Both the position numbers and the translations under genes were made by a program. The notes under the pieces were generated by a model. The model searched no databases and was not told where the DNA came from. It saw nothing but the letters and a program-made list of their open reading frames with translations. From assembly GCF_007741495.1 (NCBI RefSeq), contig NZ_CP036262.1:620001-684000 (forward strand): a stretch of DNA of 64,000 nucleotides. Reading direction: 5' to 3'. This document shows positions 4,460-59,920 of the stretch, one piece after another (the first letter of the stretch is position 1; each line of letters starts with the position of its first letter). The stretch comes from Roseimaritima multifibrata (GTDB taxonomy: Bacteria; Planctomycetota; Planctomycetia; Pirellulales; Pirellulaceae).

Positions 4460-5755
4460 CTAAGCCCAATCGCGAGGCTGGCGATATCGCAACCGGTTGG
4501 CTTCATCATCGTTCACGAATTCTTCCGTTTGTGGATCGATCGTCAGCGGACGTTTTAGCATCCAAGCGAGGGCCGCCGCATGGCAGGCGATGTGCGACCG
4601 GCGCATGACGGTCGGATTGCAAACCGTTGGTTTGCGGCTTTTGACGCAGTCAAAGAAATTCCGAGCGTGTGCCGACACATCCAGTCCTCGAACACGTTTG
4701 GTTTGCGCCAGTTCGCTTGTCAACGTTTGGGAACTTGCCACGATTTCGCCTTCGTCCCCGGTTTCTATCGATCCTTCCTCGCCATTGAAACGAACCGGGC
4801 AAGTGCCCAGTCGCGTCAGCCAGCGTGGGCCGCGGTCTCCAAAGGGGTCGGGTAGGAAATCAATCATCAACTTGACACCGTTTTCATAGGTGCAGGTGAT
4901 ATTCTTGTCGGTAGGGTGGTAAGTGATTGGCAAGGTGTCGTCCGCTTGGTTTGCCCACTGGCAGAGGTCGACGGTATGAGCGCCCCAGTCCAACAGTCGC
5001 GCGCCACTGTCGAAATCGAATTGGTCTCGCCATCCACCTTGGACGTATTTTTGATTGTAGGGTCGCCATGGCGCTGGTCCCAGCCACATGTTCCAGTCGC
5101 AGACCTCGCGGTCGGGCGTGGGTTGTCCGGGCAGCCATTCGTTTCGAAGCGACGGGATATAGACGGTTGCATCGAGGGATTGGATTTTGCCAAGTCGTCC
5201 GGTCTGAGCTAGTTCCACGGCTTTTTGGAAATTGGGAACGCTTCGCCGTTGTGTGCCGGCTTGAAAGATTCGTCCCGTCTTGTCAAAAACCTTGGAGATG
5301 TTTTGGCAATCGCCAATTGTGATGCCGCAAGGTTTCTCGCTATATACATCCTTGCCAGCCTGAGCGGCCAGGATGGATGCTGCGGCATGCCAGCGGTCGC
5401 CGGTCGCGATGATGACGGCATCCATGTCATCGCGAGCTAACATCTTGCGGAAGTCTTGATACAGTTCGCAGTCGGTGTTCCCGTTGGCGTCGTCGACCAG
5501 TTTCTTGCCTGCGTCGCGGCGAGATTTTTGGACATCGGAAATGGCAATGCACTGCACGTCCTTTAACTGCAAGATGGACTTCATGTCGTAGGTGCATCGA
5601 GGCCCAATACCGATGACCCCAAGTGTGATCTTTTCCGATGGTGCGACGTTGTCAGCGGCCCCCAAGGCTTTGGATGAAACGAAGTAGGGGACGGTCAACG
5701 AAGATACCGCGGCCGCTGTGGCAAGGAAATTGCGGCGATTAGGAGCATTGGTCAT
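4460..5755 (-). CDS. Gfo/Idh/MocA family oxidoreductase with Tat signal
   Basis: This 431-residue protein begins with a twin-arginine signal (NRRNFLATAAAVSSL) and then a Rossmann fold with the dinucleotide-binding start VIGIGPRC. The family signature EKPCGITIGDC carries the conserved EKP lysine. The C-terminal substrate domain contains WLGPAPWRPYNQKYVQGGWR and WGAHTVDLCQWAN, typical of the large planctomycete expansion of exported members. Such enzymes oxidise or isomerise sugars or cyclitols with NAD(P). Export by Tat fits a folded, cofactor-bound enzyme. It lies between two carbohydrate-related secreted proteins in the same orientation, which suggests work on a product of glycan breakdown. 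The substrate cannot be read from the sequence. Confidence 0.92.
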   Translation of the reverse strand: MTNAPNRRNFLATAAAVSSLTVPYFVSSKALGAADNVAPSEKITLGVIGIGPRCTYDMKSILQLKDVQCIAISDVQKSRRDAGKKLVDDANGNTDCELYQDFRKMLARDDMDAVIIATGDRWHAAASILAAQAGKDVYSEKPCGITIGDCQNISKVFDKTGRIFQAGTQRRSVPNFQKAVELAQTGRLGKIQSLDATVYIPSLRNEWLPGQPTPDREVCDWNMWLGPAPWRPYNQKYVQGGWRDQFDFDSGARLLDWGAHTVDLCQWANQADDTLPITYHPTDKNITCTYENGVKLMIDFLPDPFGDRGPRWLTRLGTCPVRFNGEEGSIETGDEGEIVASSQTLTSELAQTKRVRGLDVSAHARNFFDCVKSRKPTVCNPTVMRRSHIACHAAALAWMLKRPLTIDPQTEEFVNDDEANRLRYRQPRDWA

Positions 5756-11621: not shown

Positions 11622-12407
11622 CTACGAATCGGTTGGCGGGCTGATGATCCCTTCTTCTTCGACGTGCGGCAGATCTTCCAGGCTGCTGAGATGAAAGAAC
11701 TGGAGGAATCGATCGGTTGGGAAATAGGTCGATACCGTTCGCCCGCCTCCGGCCGGTTTGTTCCGCTCGACTCGCAGCATTCGACGACGGACCAGCTGAT
11801 TTAATAGAGGGCCACTCTCTTTGCCCCGTTGGTCTTGAACGGTTTGTGCATCGACGCCCGGCTGGTACGCGACCAGTGCCAGAACTTCGACAGCTCCTTG
11901 GGAGAGGTGGGCGTCCCGGACTTTGCCATAGAATGCCCTTCGCACCGTTTCCAGTTCCGGTGCCAAGAGCATTTGAAATCCGCCTTCTTCGCGAAGGATC
12001 CGAATCGCTTGACCTGCTTCGGCGTAGGAGGTGTTCAAGTCATCAATTGTTTGTTCGACTTCTTTCGGAGAAACATCGCGGATCATTCCTGCCAACTGCT
12101 TAGCGGTCAGACGTTGATTGTCGGGGTGTCCAACAAACAGGGCCGCTTCGATAATCCCTTCGATAGTTACCGGACCGGTTGATACTTCTTCTTCCTCCAC
12201 GGGCGGTTCGAGTGGCGGATCCCCCGTGTCGTCGCGATTCGCGGCTTCTTCGTCGGTTGGTTCCGCTTCATTCCCGTCCGCTTCGGCTAATACCTTGGCG
12301 TAGACCGCCCCCAGTTCCTCAAGCGAAACTTCCTCCCACTCTTCTTCAGGCTCCTCTTCAGAAGGGGTGTCGTCGTCAGGGAGGTCGGAATCTTCAAGAT
12401 TACTCAT
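11622..12407 (-). CDS. scpB: Segregation and condensation protein B
   Basis: Residues about 1-90 are an acidic, low-complexity N-terminal extension (DDDTPSEEEPEEEWEEV). The rest is a standard ScpB winged-helix pair: IIEAALFVGHPDNQRLT, then the second half LSQGAVEVLALVAYQPGVD and RMLRVERNKPAGGGRTVSTY. ScpB is the kleisin-binding partner of ScpA in the SMC-ScpAB chromosome-condensation complex. The protein is cytoplasmic and its catalytic role is none. The acidic extension is longer than in model ScpB proteins. The gene starts only 6 bases after the stop of the SDR gene, so the two are probably co-transcribed. Confidence 0.93.
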   Translation of the reverse strand: MSNLEDSDLPDDDTPSEEEPEEEWEEVSLEELGAVYAKVLAEADGNEAEPTDEEAANRDDTGDPPLEPPVEEEEVSTGPVTIEGIIEAALFVGHPDNQRLTAKQLAGMIRDVSPKEVEQTIDDLNTSYAEAGQAIRILREEGGFQMLLAPELETVRRAFYGKVRDAHLSQGAVEVLALVAYQPGVDAQTVQDQRGKESGPLLNQLVRRRMLRVERNKPAGGGRTVSTYFPTDRFLQFFHLSSLEDLPHVEEEGIISPPTDS

Positions 12408-49547: not shown

Positions 49548-49652
49548 GCATGACCTTTGTTGAATCGAATCGGCTGTCCAGTTAGAACATGACAAGGAGT
49601 TGCGTAACAGGTTCACGTTTTAGAAGCGAACCTTTTTGCCGCTGGTGCATTT

Positions 49653-50078
49653 ATGCTGGTTCTGACTGTTTCGGTTCGATCATTGGAGGGTAGCAAAATG
49701 ATCTCGCCTTCTGAAACCGCTTTTGCAAAGGGCGACAAAACGAGATCCGTTCTGATGCCGAAATCAGTGTGGGAATCTCTGATGGCTCTTCGTGATGATG
49801 CACCATTAGATGCACCCGTTTTTAGCAGCCGCAAGAAGGGACATCTCTGCGAGTCAGCCGTTTGGCGAGTTGTAAAAACGGCGACGAAACGTGCTGGGAT
49901 TCCAAAGGAAGTAAGTTGCCATTGGTTTCGTCATGCACATGCGAGTCATGCCTAGGATCGTGGTGCTCCGATTCACTTGGTTCAGGCAACGCTAGGTCAT
50001 AGCAGCGTTGCGACAACTGGAAAATATTTGCACGCACGGCCATCAGATTCCAGCGGCAATTACCTTCCGCTCGGTTAA
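49653..50078 (+). pseudogene. Truncated tyrosine recombinase with an in-frame stop
   Basis: This is the C-terminal catalytic half of a phage-integrase-type recombinase. It reads KGDKTRSVLMPKSVWESLMA, then VSCHWFRHAHASHA (HxxR), then a TAG at 49953-49955. After it, in the same frame, come DRGAPIHLVQATLGHSSVAT (LGH) and TGKYLHARPSDSS with the nucleophile Tyr. Restoring the stop would give a coherent fold, so a single base change probably created it (for example TTG to TAG). The N-terminal half is absent. The stop at 50076-50078 is followed by CACTCGCT, the motif shared by the genes after it. Confidence 0.85.
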
Positions 50079-50125
50079 CACTCGCTTGATTTCCAGAACA
50101 AATCAATCCCTTTCTGGAGATCAAC

Positions 50126-50434
50126 ATGAATCAAACGACTTCCATCGCTGACGGAAATATTCTAGCCGTCAAATCAGCCGCTCAAGATGCAAATGCCGTT
50201 CAGAATGCGGTTAATTTAATCGCCATTATTGGCTGCTTCCACCGTCACCTCCTTGCCCTTCGACAAAGTGGCTTGAATGACGATGATCTCAACAATCATC
50301 CGGTCTCACTTGCCTTTGTCAGCAAGCTCAACAGCTTGTGCCGGATGAAAATTGAACGAGAGATGGCGGCATTTTCGGCCATCGACAGAATCGCTGAAGG
50401 TAAGTCCGTCGAGTACGAAGTGCTCCCGCTCTAA
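50126..50434 (+). CDS. Hypothetical cassette-like protein
   Basis: This 102-residue protein starts MNQTTSIADGNILAVKSAAQ and ends AEGKSVEYEVLPL; I recognise no family. It looks helical, with the segment LIAIIGCFHRHLLALRQSGL and a conserved-looking core of Cys, His and Asp. GGAG lies upstream (CTGGAGATCAACATG). Its stop TAA (50432) is the first part of TAACACCCGCT, as in the recombinase remnant before it and the genes after it. The gene is probably translated. Confidence 0.65.
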   Translation: MNQTTSIADGNILAVKSAAQDANAVQNAVNLIAIIGCFHRHLLALRQSGLNDDDLNNHPVSLAFVSKLNSLCRMKIEREMAAFSAIDRIAEGKSVEYEVLPL

Positions 50435-50540
50435 CACCCGCTCGTTCCTCCGCAACAGCAATACAACTTTTGTAATGGAACATCGGGCAATCTGCATGGC
50501 CACGACCTGACCGGGGTTTCCGACCGACGCATAGACGGGC

Positions 50541-50759
50541 ATGAACATAATGACGTTTCAAGACTGGCTGGCGATTCGGGAAGGGTTGTGGCCGGGCGAC
50601 GACAAGGCAGTGGAAGGTTTGTCGAAGTTGCCCCAGCCCAAACCAAAGAAACTACCGCCACGCAAGCCGCTCACGCAGGTGGTAAGTCCGGGCAAGCCAC
50701 AGGTGCGTCCCGTGCTGCCGAAGCTTTCAATCGGACCAATGAAAAACGGACGACCATGA
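50541..50759 (+). CDS. Small hypothetical protein with FQDWLAxREGL motif
   Basis: This 72-residue protein starts with MNIMTFQDWLAIREGLWPGD and goes on with a Pro/Lys-rich tail. The FQDWLAIREGL opening recalls short planctomycete proteins with FREWLxLREGLL. Their function is unknown. The second ATG, three codons in, is an equally good start. It shares the patch with the cassette-like genes, but does not itself end in the TAACAC motif. Confidence 0.55.
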   Translation: MNIMTFQDWLAIREGLWPGDDKAVEGLSKLPQPKPKKLPPRKPLTQVVSPGKPQVRPVLPKLSIGPMKNGRP

Positions 50760-50803
50760 TGGTCGCCCGCTTTGATGTTTTCTTCTTTGCTTGGTCCGAT
50801 GCG

Positions 50804-51487
50804 TTAGGTAGTTGCGAGTTGCTTCTGCTCACGACGGCGGCGACGAGCGGTACCGACACAGGCGACACAAGCACCGATGCCGAACAAAGCGAGGGATGAG
50901 GGTTCAGGAACGGCTGCGGTAGATAAACGCAGGTTTGGTCCCAACGCTCCAATTATTCCTGTTGTTCCTGTACCTGTACCTGTGAAATTTGGCATAGTTA
51001 ACGTAAGCCCATTACCGAAGTGCTGAATGGGAACACCAAAGACAATCCCACTAATAGTGGTCGCTGTTGCGGGGAACCGGAGGAGGTCACCGCCGGTCGA
51101 ATTGGGTTGTACACCACCGATTACATAATCACCCAAACCTAAGTTTAGAGTCGCTATATCCGTTATCAACCAATTTCCGAATCCGCTGGTTGACGGTTCG
51201 ATGGTTGATCCGTTCGAAACGAAGGTAGAAGCAAGCAGAGAGCCACCTCCTGTCCACAGCCCAACTTCATGAGGGCTGTTTAATCCATCCCCCCCCTCGT
51301 CCCACCAGGCCAATCCATCCACCGCTACCGGGGCAGTGACCGAGAATGTGAACCCGACGGTGTAGTCACCGGCGCCAAACATTGTTGAGCCTCCGGCGAA
51401 ATCAAGGATGACCCCCGCCTGCACCTGCCCCGCCGTGGCGATCAGCACCGTCACGCACGCCACCGCCAATTGAATTGTTCGCATCAT
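50804..51487 (-). CDS. PEP-CTERM-sorted exported protein
   Basis: The ATG pair at 51487/51484 is preceded by GGAG at seven bases. The 227-residue protein has a signal peptide (LAVACVTVLIATAGQVQAGV) and a beta-rich body (YTVGFTFSVTAPVAVDGLAW, LSTAAVPEPSS). The C-terminus is a PEP-CTERM signal: VPEPSSLALFGIGACVACVG, then the basic tail ARRRRREQK. Such proteins are cleaved by exosortase and anchored or released at the cell surface. It points opposite to the cassette-like genes on either side of it, which is unusual for a cassette array. The function of the body is unknown. Confidence 0.85.
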   Translation of the reverse strand: MMRTIQLAVACVTVLIATAGQVQAGVILDFAGGSTMFGAGDYTVGFTFSVTAPVAVDGLAWWDEGGDGLNSPHEVGLWTGGGSLLASTFVSNGSTIEPSTSGFGNWLITDIATLNLGLGDYVIGGVQPNSTGGDLLRFPATATTISGIVFGVPIQHFGNGLTLTMPNFTGTGTGTTGIIGALGPNLRLSTAAVPEPSSLALFGIGACVACVGTARRRRREQKQLATT

Positions 51488-51573
51488 CTCGCTTCTCCTT
51501 GTTGTAGGTCTAGGAAGTTGGCCCGCTCCAGATCCGGCACCGGTGGCGTCCCCTCCTGGGGAGGTACTCTGCC

Positions 51574-51765
51574 ATGCGGTGGGGTGGGGGTAAGCGTCCA
51601 ACCGGAAAAATCCGCAAAATCTTCCAGCCCTGCGAAACTGTCCCAACAGCAGAGAAAAGTGTAGAGACTCTAGCCGAGGAGTCCGCAACGAAGCTACAGC
51701 ACTGCGAGGCACTGCCCGATGAAGGCGTTCTCCCAACCGAGTTTGAGCACGTCGATGTCGAGTAA
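51574..51765 (+). CDS. Hypothetical short gene ending at the attC-like site
   Basis: The 63-residue frame ends EFEHVDVE and its TAA is the first triplet of the TAACACCCGCT element at 51763. The last 45 residues (VPTAEKSVETLAEESATKLQ onward) look like a coding segment, but the start is uncertain and overlaps the upstream region of the PEP-CTERM gene. It may be the tail of a gene truncated by insertion of that gene. No family is recognised. Confidence 0.4.
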   Translation: MRWGGGKRPTGKIRKIFQPCETVPTAEKSVETLAEESATKLQHCEALPDEGVLPTEFEHVDVE

Positions 51766-51829
51766 CACCCGCTGGTGAATCATCAGAGCCGACAACACTG
51801 GCCGCAACAGCATTCACAAGCGAGTTAGA
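51763..51829 (+). repeat. Integron attC-like site
   Basis: TAAC (51763) pairs with GTTA (51824-51827). CGCT (51770-51773 region) pairs with AGCG (51820-51822 region), and GTGAAT pairs with ATTCAC (51812-51817), leaving a 31-base variable centre. The 3' end GTTAGAT fits GTTRRRY. The first TAA is the stop codon of the gene before, and the next gene starts seven bases after the site. This is how attC sites sit in integron arrays. Confidence 0.65.
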
Positions 51830-51835
51830 TCAACA

Positions 51836-52444
51836 ATGACACCAATCGAAGCATACGAATACGCATCAAGCTGGGGATCTTTCGCGAGAAGTGGCGACCC
51901 CGGTGCTTGCATGTACGGATTTAATTCAGACTGTCGCCCTCAATCCGAAGAACATCGTCAAGACGTTATCAATTGCATGAAAACATGCCGATTGAACGTC
52001 GTCGAACGACCCGAGAATTTTGACGACGATGAACTCGAAAAGATGGATGCCTTCGTCGAATTCATCAGCAAAAGAAACGGCAAAGGCAAATCCGCTGGAT
52101 CGTTCATCACCGAAATTGGCCTTTGCGGATCGGGCACTTGCTGTACCCATGGCGGCAATGATCTGGAAGGCGAAATGCTTTCGGATACGAACGACTGCAA
52201 TCGTTCAGGTGATGCCGAACTCGCTTGCAAATATATCCTTGACAACTACAAGCCCGAATTCCGAATCGAGCGGCGAGTCGGCGACGTTTATCAAAATGTC
52301 ATTGCCTCCAAAGAGGAAAAGCTTCAAGTGTGTCGTGAAATCTACGGTGGAAGTGATACCAATTTCAACGATGAAGATAACGCAAATCTTTATCTGGTCT
52401 GGGCGGCTGCTTCCGATCTGGAAGCAATGCAAGAGGCGAAATAA
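51836..52444 (+). CDS. Hypothetical cassette protein
   Basis: This 202-residue protein starts immediately after the attC-like site. It has several Cys residues (GACMYGFNSDC, MKTCRL, CGSGTCCTHGG, NDCNRSG, ELACKYI), suggesting metal binding or disulfides. No signal peptide is seen. The C-terminus is helical (IYGGSDTNFNDEDNANLYLV). I recognise no family. It ends in TAACACCCGCTTG and is followed by an intrinsic terminator (52469-52495), so its transcript probably ends there. Confidence 0.7.
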   Translation: MTPIEAYEYASSWGSFARSGDPGACMYGFNSDCRPQSEEHRQDVINCMKTCRLNVVERPENFDDDELEKMDAFVEFISKRNGKGKSAGSFITEIGLCGSGTCCTHGGNDLEGEMLSDTNDCNRSGDAELACKYILDNYKPEFRIERRVGDVYQNVIASKEEKLQVCREIYGGSDTNFNDEDNANLYLVWAAASDLEAMQEAK

Positions 52445-52468
52445 CACCCGCTTGAAAAACAACAACAG

Positions 52469-52495
52469 AGCCAAGGTTAACCCCTTGGCTTTTTT
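52469..52495 (+). terminator. Intrinsic terminator after the last cassette-like gene
   Basis: AGCCAAGG (52469-52476) pairs with CCTTGGCT (52483-52490) across a six-base loop. A T run follows (52490-52495). It is 25 bases after the stop codon at 52442-52444. Confidence 0.8.
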
Positions 52496-52519
52496 CTTAA
52501 ACACACAACGGGGAAAGCA

Positions 52520-52645
52520 ATGAGCAAGCGGTTATTTAGTTTAGGGAAAATTGTTGCAACGCCCGGTGCCTTGGAATTTCTGGAACGTCATCTGCTCGCT
52601 TCTAAGTCGCTTGAGCACTTCAAGCGGAGCGCTTTGCCCAAGTGA
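52520..52645 (+). CDS. Truncated small protein with KIVATPGALEFLERH motif
   Basis: The 41-residue frame MSKRLFSLGKIVATPGALEF then LERHLLASKSLEHFKRSALPK is like the start of a small protein common on plasmids and islands, whose usual continuation after the LERH region is about 60 residues more. The C-terminal part here does not match, so the gene is truncated or frameshifted. The function is unknown. Confidence 0.45.
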   Translation: MSKRLFSLGKIVATPGALEFLERHLLASKSLEHFKRSALPK

Positions 52646-56003: not shown

Positions 56004-56479
56004 GGAAACCTCCTGGCAAATTGAAAAAAAATACACGGGAACAACAAGTCTGAATACACCCCTAGCTCCTGCCTGCCGAAGGAGCAAACCTCCGTTTTCT
56101 CAATTTGCTGCACATATCTGTTTTCGCATAGTTCGCCTTTGACCAATGCCTCCGTTTCAAATTCCAGAGCATGTCAGCGCTCCTTTCGTTGAATTCCACG
56201 TTTCGCCAAGGTGGAGAGGATTTCCACATAGCTCTCTGCGGATAAACCTCCTGAAACATGTCCCTGCAGATTTCGTGACATCGTGTCATCAGAGCCTTTC
56301 CGCTGCCGAACCTGCCACGTACTGCCCGGTAGCTTGGGGGTCCTTTGGGGGGTACCTTATGTGGTCCGGGTGTCTGCCAATTGGCCTTTGGCAGACGTAA
56401 AACAAGACAGATCGTGGGGGCGTCCTACCAGGCACCTCACCTCTGTCCCACCCGGTGTTACCTGGTAGGAACGCACGAA
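56004..56479. other. Divergent intergenic region with a repeat, upstream of hsdR
   Basis: These 476 bp lie between the divergent starts of the GAF protein gene and hsdR, so promoters for both must be here. No clear promoter boxes were picked. The repeat TGACATCGTGTCA is at 56276-56288. Confidence 0.5.
56276..56288 (+). repeat. TGAC-N5-GTCA repeat 5
   Basis: TGACATCGTGTCA, 192 bases upstream of the hsdR start, in the space from which both hsdR and the GAF gene must be transcribed. It could be an operator, but copies inside genes argue for a dispersed repeat. Confidence 0.75.
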
Positions 56480-59400
56480 ATGGCACACCCTGACGCATCC
56501 GCTCCACGTTCGCCCAACTTTCATTTCCTCACAAAAGTCGATCCGCTCTTGGCCGATTTGGGCTTAAGGGCCGAGCGGTATGCGCTAGAAGACCCAGTGA
56601 CGGCCATTATGAAGGTGCGGCAGCTGGGTGAGTTGTTGGCCCAGTCCGTGGCGGCAAAATATGGCATCGACACGACCGTCGATTCGCGTCCCAAGGATCA
56701 ACGTACGCTCCTTGACGAGTTGTTCCGGTCCCGCGCGTTGCCAGCAGACATCAACAACCTCTTTCACGAGATCCGGAAAGAGGGCAACCAAGCCATTCAT
56801 GCAATCAAAGGAGACCAGGGGCGGGCGATCACGGTCCTGCGTTACGCCCGGCAGGCGGCCGTATGGTTTTTTCGAACGCACTTCGACCGTGCGGCTAAGC
56901 TTGGACCGTTTGTGCCGCCACTGCCGAAATCGGACACGTCCGATGAATTGAAACGTGAAATCGCTCGGCTGGAAAAGGAGTACGAAAATGCTTCGGCCGC
57001 TCTGGAGCGTTTGAAAGACCAAGCTGCGGACGAACAGCAATTACGCCAGCTAGCCGAGGATGACCGCAAGCGAGCCTTTCAGGATCTCGATGCCGCGATG
57101 TCACTCGTTGAAGAGGAATTCTCGGCTACGCAGGCACGGATCACGGAACTGGAGAACCGACTGGCCGAGACTTCTCAGACAGCCAAGCCGACTCAGTCTG
57201 AAACCCAACAGATGGTCGAAACCGGCCAGCAAGTGGCCGACGAAGTGCTCTCGGAGGCAGACACTCGAGAGCTGATCGACATTCAACTACGAGAGGCCGG
57301 TTGGATCGTTGATTCCAAAAACCTTCGCTACAGCAAAGGAACACGCCCGCAAAAGAATAAAAACACCGCCATCGCGGAGTGGCCCACGTCCAGCGGCCCG
57401 GCGGACTACGTGCTGTTCATCGGTTTGGCCCCAGTCGCCATCGTCGAAGCGAAACGGAAAAACATCGACGTTGCTGGCGCTATCGCTCAAGCCAGACGAT
57501 ACAGCGGGGACTTCGTCATTCAGGGCACTGACATCGTGTCACCTGGCGGACCTTGGGGAGACTGTAAAGTCCCATTCCTGTTCTCGACGAACGGGCGTGG
57601 CTATCTGAAACAACTCAAAACCAAGAGTGGCGTCTGGTTCCTCGATTCACGACGCTCCACCAATCTCCCGCGTCCATTGGTCAGTTGGTACACCCCGGAG
57701 GGTTTGGGGCAACTGCTCTCTCAGGACATCGACGAAGCCGAGCAACGGCTGCAGGTGGAATCTACCGGGTACCTTCCGCTTCGCTTCTACCAAGAAGAGG
57801 CCGTCAAGGCAGTCGAGAGGGCCATTTCCGACGGCGAACGAGAAATGCTGCTCGCGATGGCAACCGGTACGGGCAAAACGAGGACGTGCATAGGCATCTG
57901 CTATCGACTGATCAAAGCCAAGCGTTTTCGACGAATCCTGTTTCTTGTCGACCGAACCAGCCTGGGCGAACAAACGTCCGACGCGCTCCATGATCTGCGC
58001 ATAGAGAACAATCAGACATTCGCGGACATCTACGACGTGAAGGAACTGGGGGACCTAACCCCCGACCAAGACACCAAATTCCATATCGCCACTATCCAAG
58101 CGATGGTCAAACGGGTCTTGGGATCTGATGACACGGTGTCAGCTTTACCAGTGGACCAATACGACTGCATCGTCGTTGACGAATGCCACCGGGGCTATAG
58201 CCTCGATCAGGAACTAAGCGACAGCGAACTCGGCTTCCGTGACGAAACGGACTACATCTCGAAGTACTCCCGTATCCTTGAGTACTTCGATGCCGTCAAA
58301 ATCGGGCTGACGGCGACCCCGGCTGTCCACACGACCGAAATCTTCGGTGGCACCAGCGGCATGCCGATCTACCAATACAGCTATCGACAAGCGGTTCTCG
58401 ATGGCTATCTGGTGGATCACGAACCACCGCTGCAGATCAAAACCAGGTTGGCGCAGGATGGCATTCAGTTCCAAGTCAACGAAGAGGTCGCCGTCTATGA
58501 CAACCAAAAACAGCAGCTTGAACTATTCAATACCCCCGATGAAATCGTCCTAGAAATCGACAGTTTCAATCGCAAAGTCGTCAACGAGAACTTCAACCGG
58601 GTGATCTGTAGGGAACTTGCCAAGCACATCGACCCCAGCTTGCCTGGAAAAACGCTTGTCTTCTGCGTTAGCGACATGCATGCAGATATGGTCGTTTCGG
58701 AACTGAATGCTGCTTTCAAGGAGCAGTATGGCGAAATTGAAAACCAAGCTGTTTTAAAGATCACCGGCAAGGCCCATAAACCGCTCCAGTTGATCCGCCG
58801 GTTCAAAAACGAACGGTATCCAAGTGTCGTCGTGACAGTCGATTTGCTGACCACCGGGATCGACGTTCCCGAGATTTGCAATCTTGTCTTCCTACGACGC
58901 GTCCGGAGTCGTATTCTCTACGACCAAATGCTCGGACGAGGCACAAGGCTTTGCTCTAGCCTTCACGGGCTCAACGATGATAAATCCTGCTTTCATATCT
59001 TCGACTGCGTCGAACTCTATTCGTCGCTGAAGTCTTACACCGATATGCAGGCAGTCGTCACGAATCCCAACATATCGTTCAGCCAACTGCTGGACGAACT
59101 GGCCAGCGTCACCACTGACGAGCATCGTCAAACCATTAAAGAACAATTGATCGCCAAACTTCAACGAAAAAAACGGTCCCTGAAAGGCAGCAGGGCGCAG
59201 GTTTTAGAAGAAAAATCGGGCAAGAACCCCGAATCGTTGATCGAGCAGATTCAAAAGGCAACGCCCGATGAAATCGTGGAATGGTTTGCCGACAAAACCA
59301 ACGTGGTCGAATTCCTCGACCAGAAGGCAGGCGGGGGCGGTACCCGTTTCTTCGTTTCCGAGCACGAAGATGAAGTCGTGTCAGTCGAATCAGGCTTCGG

Positions 59401-59920
59401 CAAAGGCAACCAGCGGCCCAAAGACTACCTGGAAGAGTTTCGCGAATTCGTCACGGGGCACCAAAATGACATCGCGGCAATCAAGCTGTGTGCGACCCGC
59501 CCCAGGGACCTGACACGGCAAACCCTCAAAGAACTGCAGATCGAACTCGACAAGCAGGGTTTCAGCGAAACGCGTTTACGGGTTGCCTGGCGAGAAACCA
59601 AAAATGTCGAAATTGCCGCGACGATCATCGGCTACATCCGAAACGCGATTCTTCAGGCCCCGCTGGAGCCCTTCGAAGATCGTGTCAACAAAGCCATGAC
59701 CGCGTTGCTGACATCGCGTCAGTGGACTCAGCCGCAACGAAAATGGCTCGATCGGATCGGCAAGCAGTTCAAAGAGAACACGCTTGTAGACCGAGACGCA
59801 TTCAATCAAGGGCAATTCAGAGAACACGGGGGCTTTGATCGCCTGAACAAGGTTTTCGACGGTAAACTCGTCGAATTACTCGGCCAGATCACCGATGAGA
59901 TCTGGGGGCTTGCTGCCTAG
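56480..59920 (+). CDS. hsdR: Type I restriction endonuclease subunit R
   Basis: The ATG at 56480 follows a AGGA ribosome site and gives 1146 residues. A DUF4145-like N-terminal region (about 20-140) leads into a coiled coil (about 155-230). The nuclease domain has D309 and E323-A-K325 (ADYVLFIGLAPVAIVEAKRK). Helicase motifs are Walker A ATGTGKT at 461-467, DECH at 567-570, GLTATP and LGRGTRL. It cuts DNA after ATP-driven translocation in complex with HsdM and HsdS. It contains three TGAC-N5-GTCA repeats (57529, 58129, 59709) without loss of frame. It is the first gene of the operon. Confidence 0.96.
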   Translation: MAHPDASAPRSPNFHFLTKVDPLLADLGLRAERYALEDPVTAIMKVRQLGELLAQSVAAKYGIDTTVDSRPKDQRTLLDELFRSRALPADINNLFHEIRKEGNQAIHAIKGDQGRAITVLRYARQAAVWFFRTHFDRAAKLGPFVPPLPKSDTSDELKREIARLEKEYENASAALERLKDQAADEQQLRQLAEDDRKRAFQDLDAAMSLVEEEFSATQARITELENRLAETSQTAKPTQSETQQMVETGQQVADEVLSEADTRELIDIQLREAGWIVDSKNLRYSKGTRPQKNKNTAIAEWPTSSGPADYVLFIGLAPVAIVEAKRKNIDVAGAIAQARRYSGDFVIQGTDIVSPGGPWGDCKVPFLFSTNGRGYLKQLKTKSGVWFLDSRRSTNLPRPLVSWYTPEGLGQLLSQDIDEAEQRLQVESTGYLPLRFYQEEAVKAVERAISDGEREMLLAMATGTGKTRTCIGICYRLIKAKRFRRILFLVDRTSLGEQTSDALHDLRIENNQTFADIYDVKELGDLTPDQDTKFHIATIQAMVKRVLGSDDTVSALPVDQYDCIVVDECHRGYSLDQELSDSELGFRDETDYISKYSRILEYFDAVKIGLTATPAVHTTEIFGGTSGMPIYQYSYRQAVLDGYLVDHEPPLQIKTRLAQDGIQFQVNEEVAVYDNQKQQLELFNTPDEIVLEIDSFNRKVVNENFNRVICRELAKHIDPSLPGKTLVFCVSDMHADMVVSELNAAFKEQYGEIENQAVLKITGKAHKPLQLIRRFKNERYPSVVVTVDLLTTGIDVPEICNLVFLRRVRSRILYDQMLGRGTRLCSSLHGLNDDKSCFHIFDCVELYSSLKSYTDMQAVVTNPNISFSQLLDELASVTTDEHRQTIKEQLIAKLQRKKRSLKGSRAQVLEEKSGKNPESLIEQIQKATPDEIVEWFADKTNVVEFLDQKAGGGGTRFFVSEHEDEVVSVESGFGKGNQRPKDYLEEFREFVTGHQNDIAAIKLCATRPRDLTRQTLKELQIELDKQGFSETRLRVAWRETKNVEIAATIIGYIRNAILQAPLEPFEDRVNKAMTALLTSRQWTQPQRKWLDRIGKQFKENTLVDRDAFNQGQFREHGGFDRLNKVFDGKLVELLGQITDEIWGLAA
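57529..57541 (+). repeat. TGAC-N5-GTCA repeat 6
   Basis: TGACATCGTGTCA inside hsdR, coding for part of GTDIVSP. Confidence 0.75.
58129..58141 (+). repeat. TGAC-N5-GTCA repeat 7
   Basis: TGACACGGTGTCA inside hsdR, coding for part of SDDTVSA just before the DECH motif. Confidence 0.75.
59709..59721 (+). repeat. TGAC-N5-GTCA repeat 8
   Basis: TGACATCGCGTCA inside the 3' part of hsdR, coding for part of LLTSRQW. The coding residues LTSRQ match those encoded by copy 1. Confidence 0.75.

Follow-up and report, generated by a model that had tools for sequence, protein, structure and literature searches.

The window analysed here, a stretch of 64,000 nucleotides of the Roseimaritima multifibrata chromosome, contains a decayed copy of a gene array specific to the family Pirellulaceae, with truncated genes and an insert, in which a short repeat precedes nearly every gene or gene pair. 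We propose that this repeat is a start-associated, bipartite expression signal standing before nearly every array gene, a reading drawn from sequence comparison to which we assign a probability of about 0.47, slightly short of even. The repeats have the appearance of a gene-start signal and a gene-swapping boundary in one, and no description of either the repeat or such a combination was found in the open-access papers searched.

The gene order in the window is IntA remnant, MNQTTS, HGHDL (split by the insert), EAYEY and MSKRLF remnant, the small array proteins being named by their first residues; features lie on the forward strand unless otherwise stated. A truncated tyrosine recombinase had been reported at the start of the locus by the first-pass annotation, and it is real: the C-terminal remnant of IntA, a Xer-like tyrosine recombinase (49635..50078), matches PF00589 in two pieces, carries one in-frame TAG at 49954 and is 72% identical to residues 160-306 of the intact copy in a related genome, G206. 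Its stop codon lies inside the first repeat copy (TAACACTCGCTTG, 50076..50088, one change from consensus). The hairpin TTGATTTCCAGAA/TTCTGGAGATCAA (50086..50124, z 6.8 against shuffles) follows, with a 3' arm containing the GGAG ribosome-binding sequence of the next gene; its stem is retained in the relative G103 and is present in a shorter form in G206. That next gene, MNQTTS (50126..50434, 102 aa), stops within repeat copy 2 (TAACACCCGCTCG, 50432..50444, one change), after which comes the leader of HGHDL. The insert that splits HGHDL extends approximately over 50513..51699, with ends estimated by eye, and holds an ORF (50541-50759) and, on the reverse strand, a PEP-CTERM gene (50804-51493). 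The last 21 codons of HGHDL (51700..51765), 85% identical to residues 114-134 of the G206 protein, stop within repeat copy 3 (TAACACCCGCTGG, 51763..51775, one change). A hairpin in the EAYEY leader, CGCT..GTGAAT/ATTCAC..AGCG (51770..51822), shows compensatory changes relative to G206 and G086, and EAYEY itself (51836..52444, 202 aa) stops within repeat copy 4 (52442..52454), which is the consensus, TAACACCCGCTTG. Beyond it are an intrinsic-terminator-like hairpin with a T run (GAGCCAAGG/CCTTGGCT, 52468..52496), retained in G086 with a compensatory change (CCATGG), and the N-terminal remnant of the plasmid-type protein MSKRLF (52520..52612, 31 of 91 codons). Four frames do end in the repeat as first claimed, but two of these belong to gene remnants, namely the recombinase and the ~21 terminal codons of HGHDL. 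The one-change state of three of the four copies fits decay.

The insert belongs to a recurring unit, a small ORF, MNIMTFQ(D/E)WLAIREGLW, paired with a PEP-CTERM gene, of which there are three related copies (50513-51699 of the window, and L011 8400-9480 and 11300-12430), with related units in the second repeat cluster of this genome described below. Two of the three copies sit inside HGHDL genes of arrays, and the unit is possibly an undescribed mobile one. Elsewhere in the window, at 56345-59920, a large helicase/nuclease-like frame resembles the HsdR subunit of type I restriction systems.

The exact motif TAACAC(C/T)CGCT is present four times in the window, at 50076, 50432, 51763 and 52442, as had been reported. 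The genome as a whole, one contig of 7,216,590 bases, has 10 exact matches, comprising the window cluster, a second cluster of four on the opposite strand (3,852,194-3,853,961) and two singletons (L012 and L013), which have no strong hairpin and look like chance. The reversed pattern, as a control, gives 6 matches against these 10; four copies within 2.4 kb at the genome density have a chance of ~5e-12 by Poisson arithmetic, and the clustering is not chance. Allowing two mismatches yields 18 matches in the window against 20 expected, which is chance level, and information thus resides only in the exact copies. Copies within each cluster share one orientation. Occurrences of TAACACCCGCTGG within RuvB-like genes are in-frame coding sequence (LTPAG) and probably coincidental.

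Across 56 sites, among which orthologous sites are not independent and gene starts were placed by eye or by longest frame, 13 positions are near-invariant and the immediate upstream flank is random. The full motif is bipartite, TAACACCCGCTTG-N5-YRTY, or TAACACCCGCTTG-N5-CRTYA when weighted by gene family, and its second block, Y19-R20, occurs at fixed spacing in 19 of 21 families (p 4e-10). The repeat lies 42-57 nt upstream of the start codon in most families (about 30-40 bp in the comparison with phage SAS repeats given below). At 21 of the 56 sites its TAA closes a reading frame at least 60 codons long, with 5 and 8 for the other two frames. An Rfam search of the region returned two sub-threshold chance matches only.

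The 13-mer TAACACCCGCTTG was searched in 241 Pirellulaceae genomes and a further 392 drawn from the phylum. Intact array versions are found in three other genera, with 10-13 repeat copies each; exact 13-mers number 11 in G103, 11 in G206 and 8 in G086, with fragments in G151 and traces in G127, G138 and G141. The remaining genomes searched contain scattered singletons only, and no cluster lies outside Pirellulaceae. The first-pass annotation had looked to a search of this kind for many integron sites; the motif is indeed clustered in the family and not randomly placed. With 23 proteins mapped onto the arrays, gene order is largely colinear among G103, G206, G086, G151 and the two decayed loci of this genome, a comparison that rests on four substantially preserved arrays, the last of them only partly so. 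The order begins with ArdC, two small proteins, a RuvB-like ATPase, an HTH protein and the tyrosine recombinase, followed by MNQTTS, MKTSC, HGHDL, MGWLF, EAYEY, MSKRLF, QTSVFD, MADQTE, MAWSW, MLLRA and RTSRF. With its ArdC antirestriction protein, RuvB-like ATPase, HTH protein, Xer-like recombinase and many small genes, the array is of mobile-element character, and proteins related to MSKRLF and MGWLF are encoded on plasmids of other phyla. A search of genome contigs with the MAWSW protein gave one known relative only (UBA6163, a planctomycete), the HTH protein had no match among viral contigs, and a gene flanking the G103 array, through which an empty site was sought, is absent from its relatives. 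An ECF sigma gene lies inside three arrays, with no ECF match in G103. The array recombinase resembles Xer (147 bits to NF040815, under the 220-bit cut-off) and scores 79.5 bits against the IntI family TIGR02249 (cut-off 265). G086 carries another recombinase (25% identical), and its RuvB-like and HTH proteins are likewise distinct from those of the other arrays, but the 13-mer is unchanged; an identical 13-mer alongside such divergent recombinases points to a host factor rather than to the resident recombinase.

Comparison of junctions reveals modular gain and loss of genes at the repeat boundaries, as in integrons. HGHDL and EAYEY are separated by a single repeat here, and by repeat, MGWLF and repeat in G206; the HGHDL stop lies in the repeat in both situations, before MGWLF in G103 and G206 and before EAYEY in the window. 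Similarly, MSKRLF is preceded by a repeat in which EAYEY stops in three arrays and MQFSI in G103, and HGHDL by one in which MNQTTS stops in the window and in G086, and MKTSC in the second cluster of this genome. Since the stop-in-repeat arrangement survives rearrangement, the breakpoints fell at the repeat. Furthermore, a minus-strand gene, carbonic-anhydrase-like on a reading of its sequence alone, lies between two repeats in the second cluster and is placed differently in G206. Deletion through ordinary recombination of 13-bp direct repeats can account for most of these exchanges, but less readily for the displaced minus-strand gene. The fallback offered by the first-pass annotation, a decaying and undescribed element related to integrons, is supported by this cassette-like gain, loss and exchange of genes between genera and by the truncated genes and insert. 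In the L065+L066 array of G206, a gene-free segment of 94 nt (12254-12348) lies between two repeats, the 17-mer AATCCAACTTTTGTAAC occurs on both sides of the second repeat, and similar leaders precede two unrelated genes, P93 and HGHDL.

Stems following the repeat exceed shuffles on average (mean z 1.3 for stems and -1.26 for folding energy) but are very uneven in strength, being very strong at MNQTTS, EAYEY and MKTSC and absent at MLLRA, RuvB and MNNTI. Paired changes are seen in EAYEY (GTGGAT/ATCCAC against GTGAAT/ATTCAC), in MKTSC (TTCGTCG/CGACGAA against CTCGTCG/CGACGAG) and in the MSKRLF terminator (CCAAGG/CCTTGG against CCATGG/CCATGG), a terminator that follows the repeat and precedes the start in each of the four MSKRLF leaders. 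The bases after the repeat were also paired with the ribosome-binding and start regions of their own gene or of other families: own starts score 14.2 against 12.1 for swapped ones (sd 0.39), with none of 20,000 permutations as good. MNQTTS is the largest contributor, and by our own arithmetic the excess is about 3.6 sd without it. The idea of different sequence with preserved pairing is thus partly right, but the partner is usually the start of the next gene, which points to translation and not to a folded attachment site. The arms originally named fare unevenly. At 50076, the strong stem is the 13-bp TTGATTTCCAGAA/TTCTGGAGATCAA and not the 7-bp TTGATTT/AAATCAA; GTTCC/GGAAC at 50432 does not stand out from shuffled sequence (p 0.38); GTGAAT/ATTCAC at 51763 covaries with GTGGAT/ATCCAC in two orthologues but is not the best stem in the shuffle test; and GAAAAA/TTTTTTC at 52442 is the A/T flank of the intrinsic terminator.

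It was originally suggested that these are attC sites of a degenerate integron cassette array, a reading that we now consider highly improbable. At 51763, TAAC-3nt-CGCT...AGCG-1nt-GTTA has an attC-like geometry and its stem shows compensatory changes, but the 3' half taken for an attC feature, GTTAGAT, reads GGTAGAT in the orthologues; a conserved R' half is found in no site set, and inspection finds an R' box (GTT...) in 1 of the 56 sites. A lineage-specific attC covariance model, distinct from that of IntegronFinder and built from 13 sites of two integrons (one in this genome, one in G103), recovers a series of sites along L086, the second integron of this genome, which had been held out, with E down to 7e-20, yet finds none in the window or in any repeat array, the best score in the region with filters off being 6.7 bits. 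The absence of any site scored by attC models had been named in advance as refuting the suggestion, and this is what was found. A home-made attC finder requiring GTTRRRY gave no match even at genuine integrons, where R' is GTTACCC; having failed its own control, it is excluded from the evidence. No IntI adjoins the array, the two complete intI genes of this genome being far off at 2.98 and 5.04 Mb with attC arrays of their own, which look different.

The main rival, which we regard as doubtful, is that the bipartite repeat is a one-sided core site, with a strong left arm (TAACACCCGC), a variable middle and a weak right arm (YRTYA), at which a tyrosine recombinase moves genes as cassettes without attC, in an integron- or R64-shufflon-like manner. 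Exact cassette junctions at which the stop stays in the repeat on either side of a change, the displaced minus-strand gene flanked by two repeats in the second cluster relative to G206, the tyrosine recombinase inside intact arrays and a weak dyad, TAAC...GTTA, in some families all argue for such a site. On the other hand, the same 13-mer would have to serve recombinases of only 25% identity, the arrays are mostly colinear and not shuffled, and a constant distance to the start codon is not needed for recombination. An improbable further reading is that an alternative sigma factor binds the 13-mer and YRTY, so that every gene would have a promoter to itself, in keeping with the bipartite motif at fixed spacing about 30 nt before starts and with the ECF sigma gene within three arrays; however, a terminator separates repeat and start in each of the four MSKRLF leaders, no known -10/-35 spacing could be named as a match and G103 has no ECF match. 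A sigma-70 promoter was rejected, the site profile having no -10-like block at the right distance from TTG.

We rank the expression signal above the recombination site because the distance to the start is kept, the pairing is with the start, the 13-mer is constant across the recombinase exchange and gene order is conserved. As a start signal, the fixed 13-mer would be bound by a host factor, and the hairpin would conceal the next ribosome-binding site until it is opened by a ribosome that finishes the preceding frame at the TAA. Since identical copies are spaced a few hundred bases apart, whole genes might be added or removed by recombination from one copy to another, so that the array may act as a slow cassette array without being an integron. 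Against this start signal, pairing alone does not require a fixed 13-mer, the MLLRA, RuvB and MNNTI families have no stem, and the first array gene has no predecessor to which it could be coupled. Recombination at the repeat accounts for the exact retention of stops in it after rearrangement better than an expression signal alone would. It is conceivable, if unlikely, that the repeat is both start signal and site of whole-gene exchange, an integron-independent cassette system in which each gene would bring its own translation switch. The expression and recombination functions predict opposite, testable outcomes.

The closest described anatomy is that of the SAS/ESAS repeats of cluster K mycobacteriophages, a 13-bp asymmetric repeat in 11-19 copies of one orientation, situated at the starts of non-structural genes and sometimes holding the upstream stop codon (PMC3203893). 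These have inverted repeats beside about half of the copies, preceding the 13-mer and without RNA covariation, are absent from the host genome at large, and lie 3-7 bp from the start with a consensus, GGGATAGGAGCCC, that includes the Shine-Dalgarno core (PMC3203893). The array repeat is likewise short, asymmetric, of one orientation and at many gene starts of one element, but it belongs to Pirellulaceae genomes and not to phages of actinobacteria, lies 42-57 nt from the start and has no Shine-Dalgarno core; as sequence, spacing and pairing differ, it is an analogue and not a member. With integron arrays it shares small genes of unknown function that follow one another in the same orientation, boundary repeats supplying stop codons, gene gain and loss at boundaries and a tyrosine recombinase nearby, and it differs in lacking model-recognised attC sites, a conserved R' half and IntI, and in having a largely fixed gene order and a repeat tied to gene starts. 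The sfx sites of the R64 shufflon are also short asymmetric repeats with one conserved arm and a tyrosine recombinase nearby; unlike these, the array copies are all direct, with no inverting segments and no adjoining pilus gene. ArdC and the MSKRLF-type and MGWLF-type proteins recall accessory regions of conjugative plasmids, but the array is chromosomal here and no relaxase or transfer genes were identified in the annotated stretches. If our reading is right, there would be a second route to a modular bacterial gene array, with modules marked by a repeated start signal instead of attC, and the start-associated repeats of phages, themselves unexplained, would have a bacterial counterpart.

Genuine integrons, each with a complete intI and an array of attC sites of about 90 nt (GGTAAC...GTTACCC), were recorded at L085 (G000 C1:2976000-2994000), L086 (C1:5034000-5052000) and L087 (G103 C1:6066000-6084000). 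In L085, an exact direct repeat of 300 bp lies close to an attC-bearing segment that is duplicated, and a unit of ~50 nt (AAAAGTAGGCCGGATCAAAGAGCGACAGCGATACCGCTCC), itself containing an inverted repeat, occurs four times at 5184-5455 with a spacing of 58-84 nt. In G137, C1 carries at least six full-length IntI genes in several places, some with near-identical scores, which suggests several integron copies.
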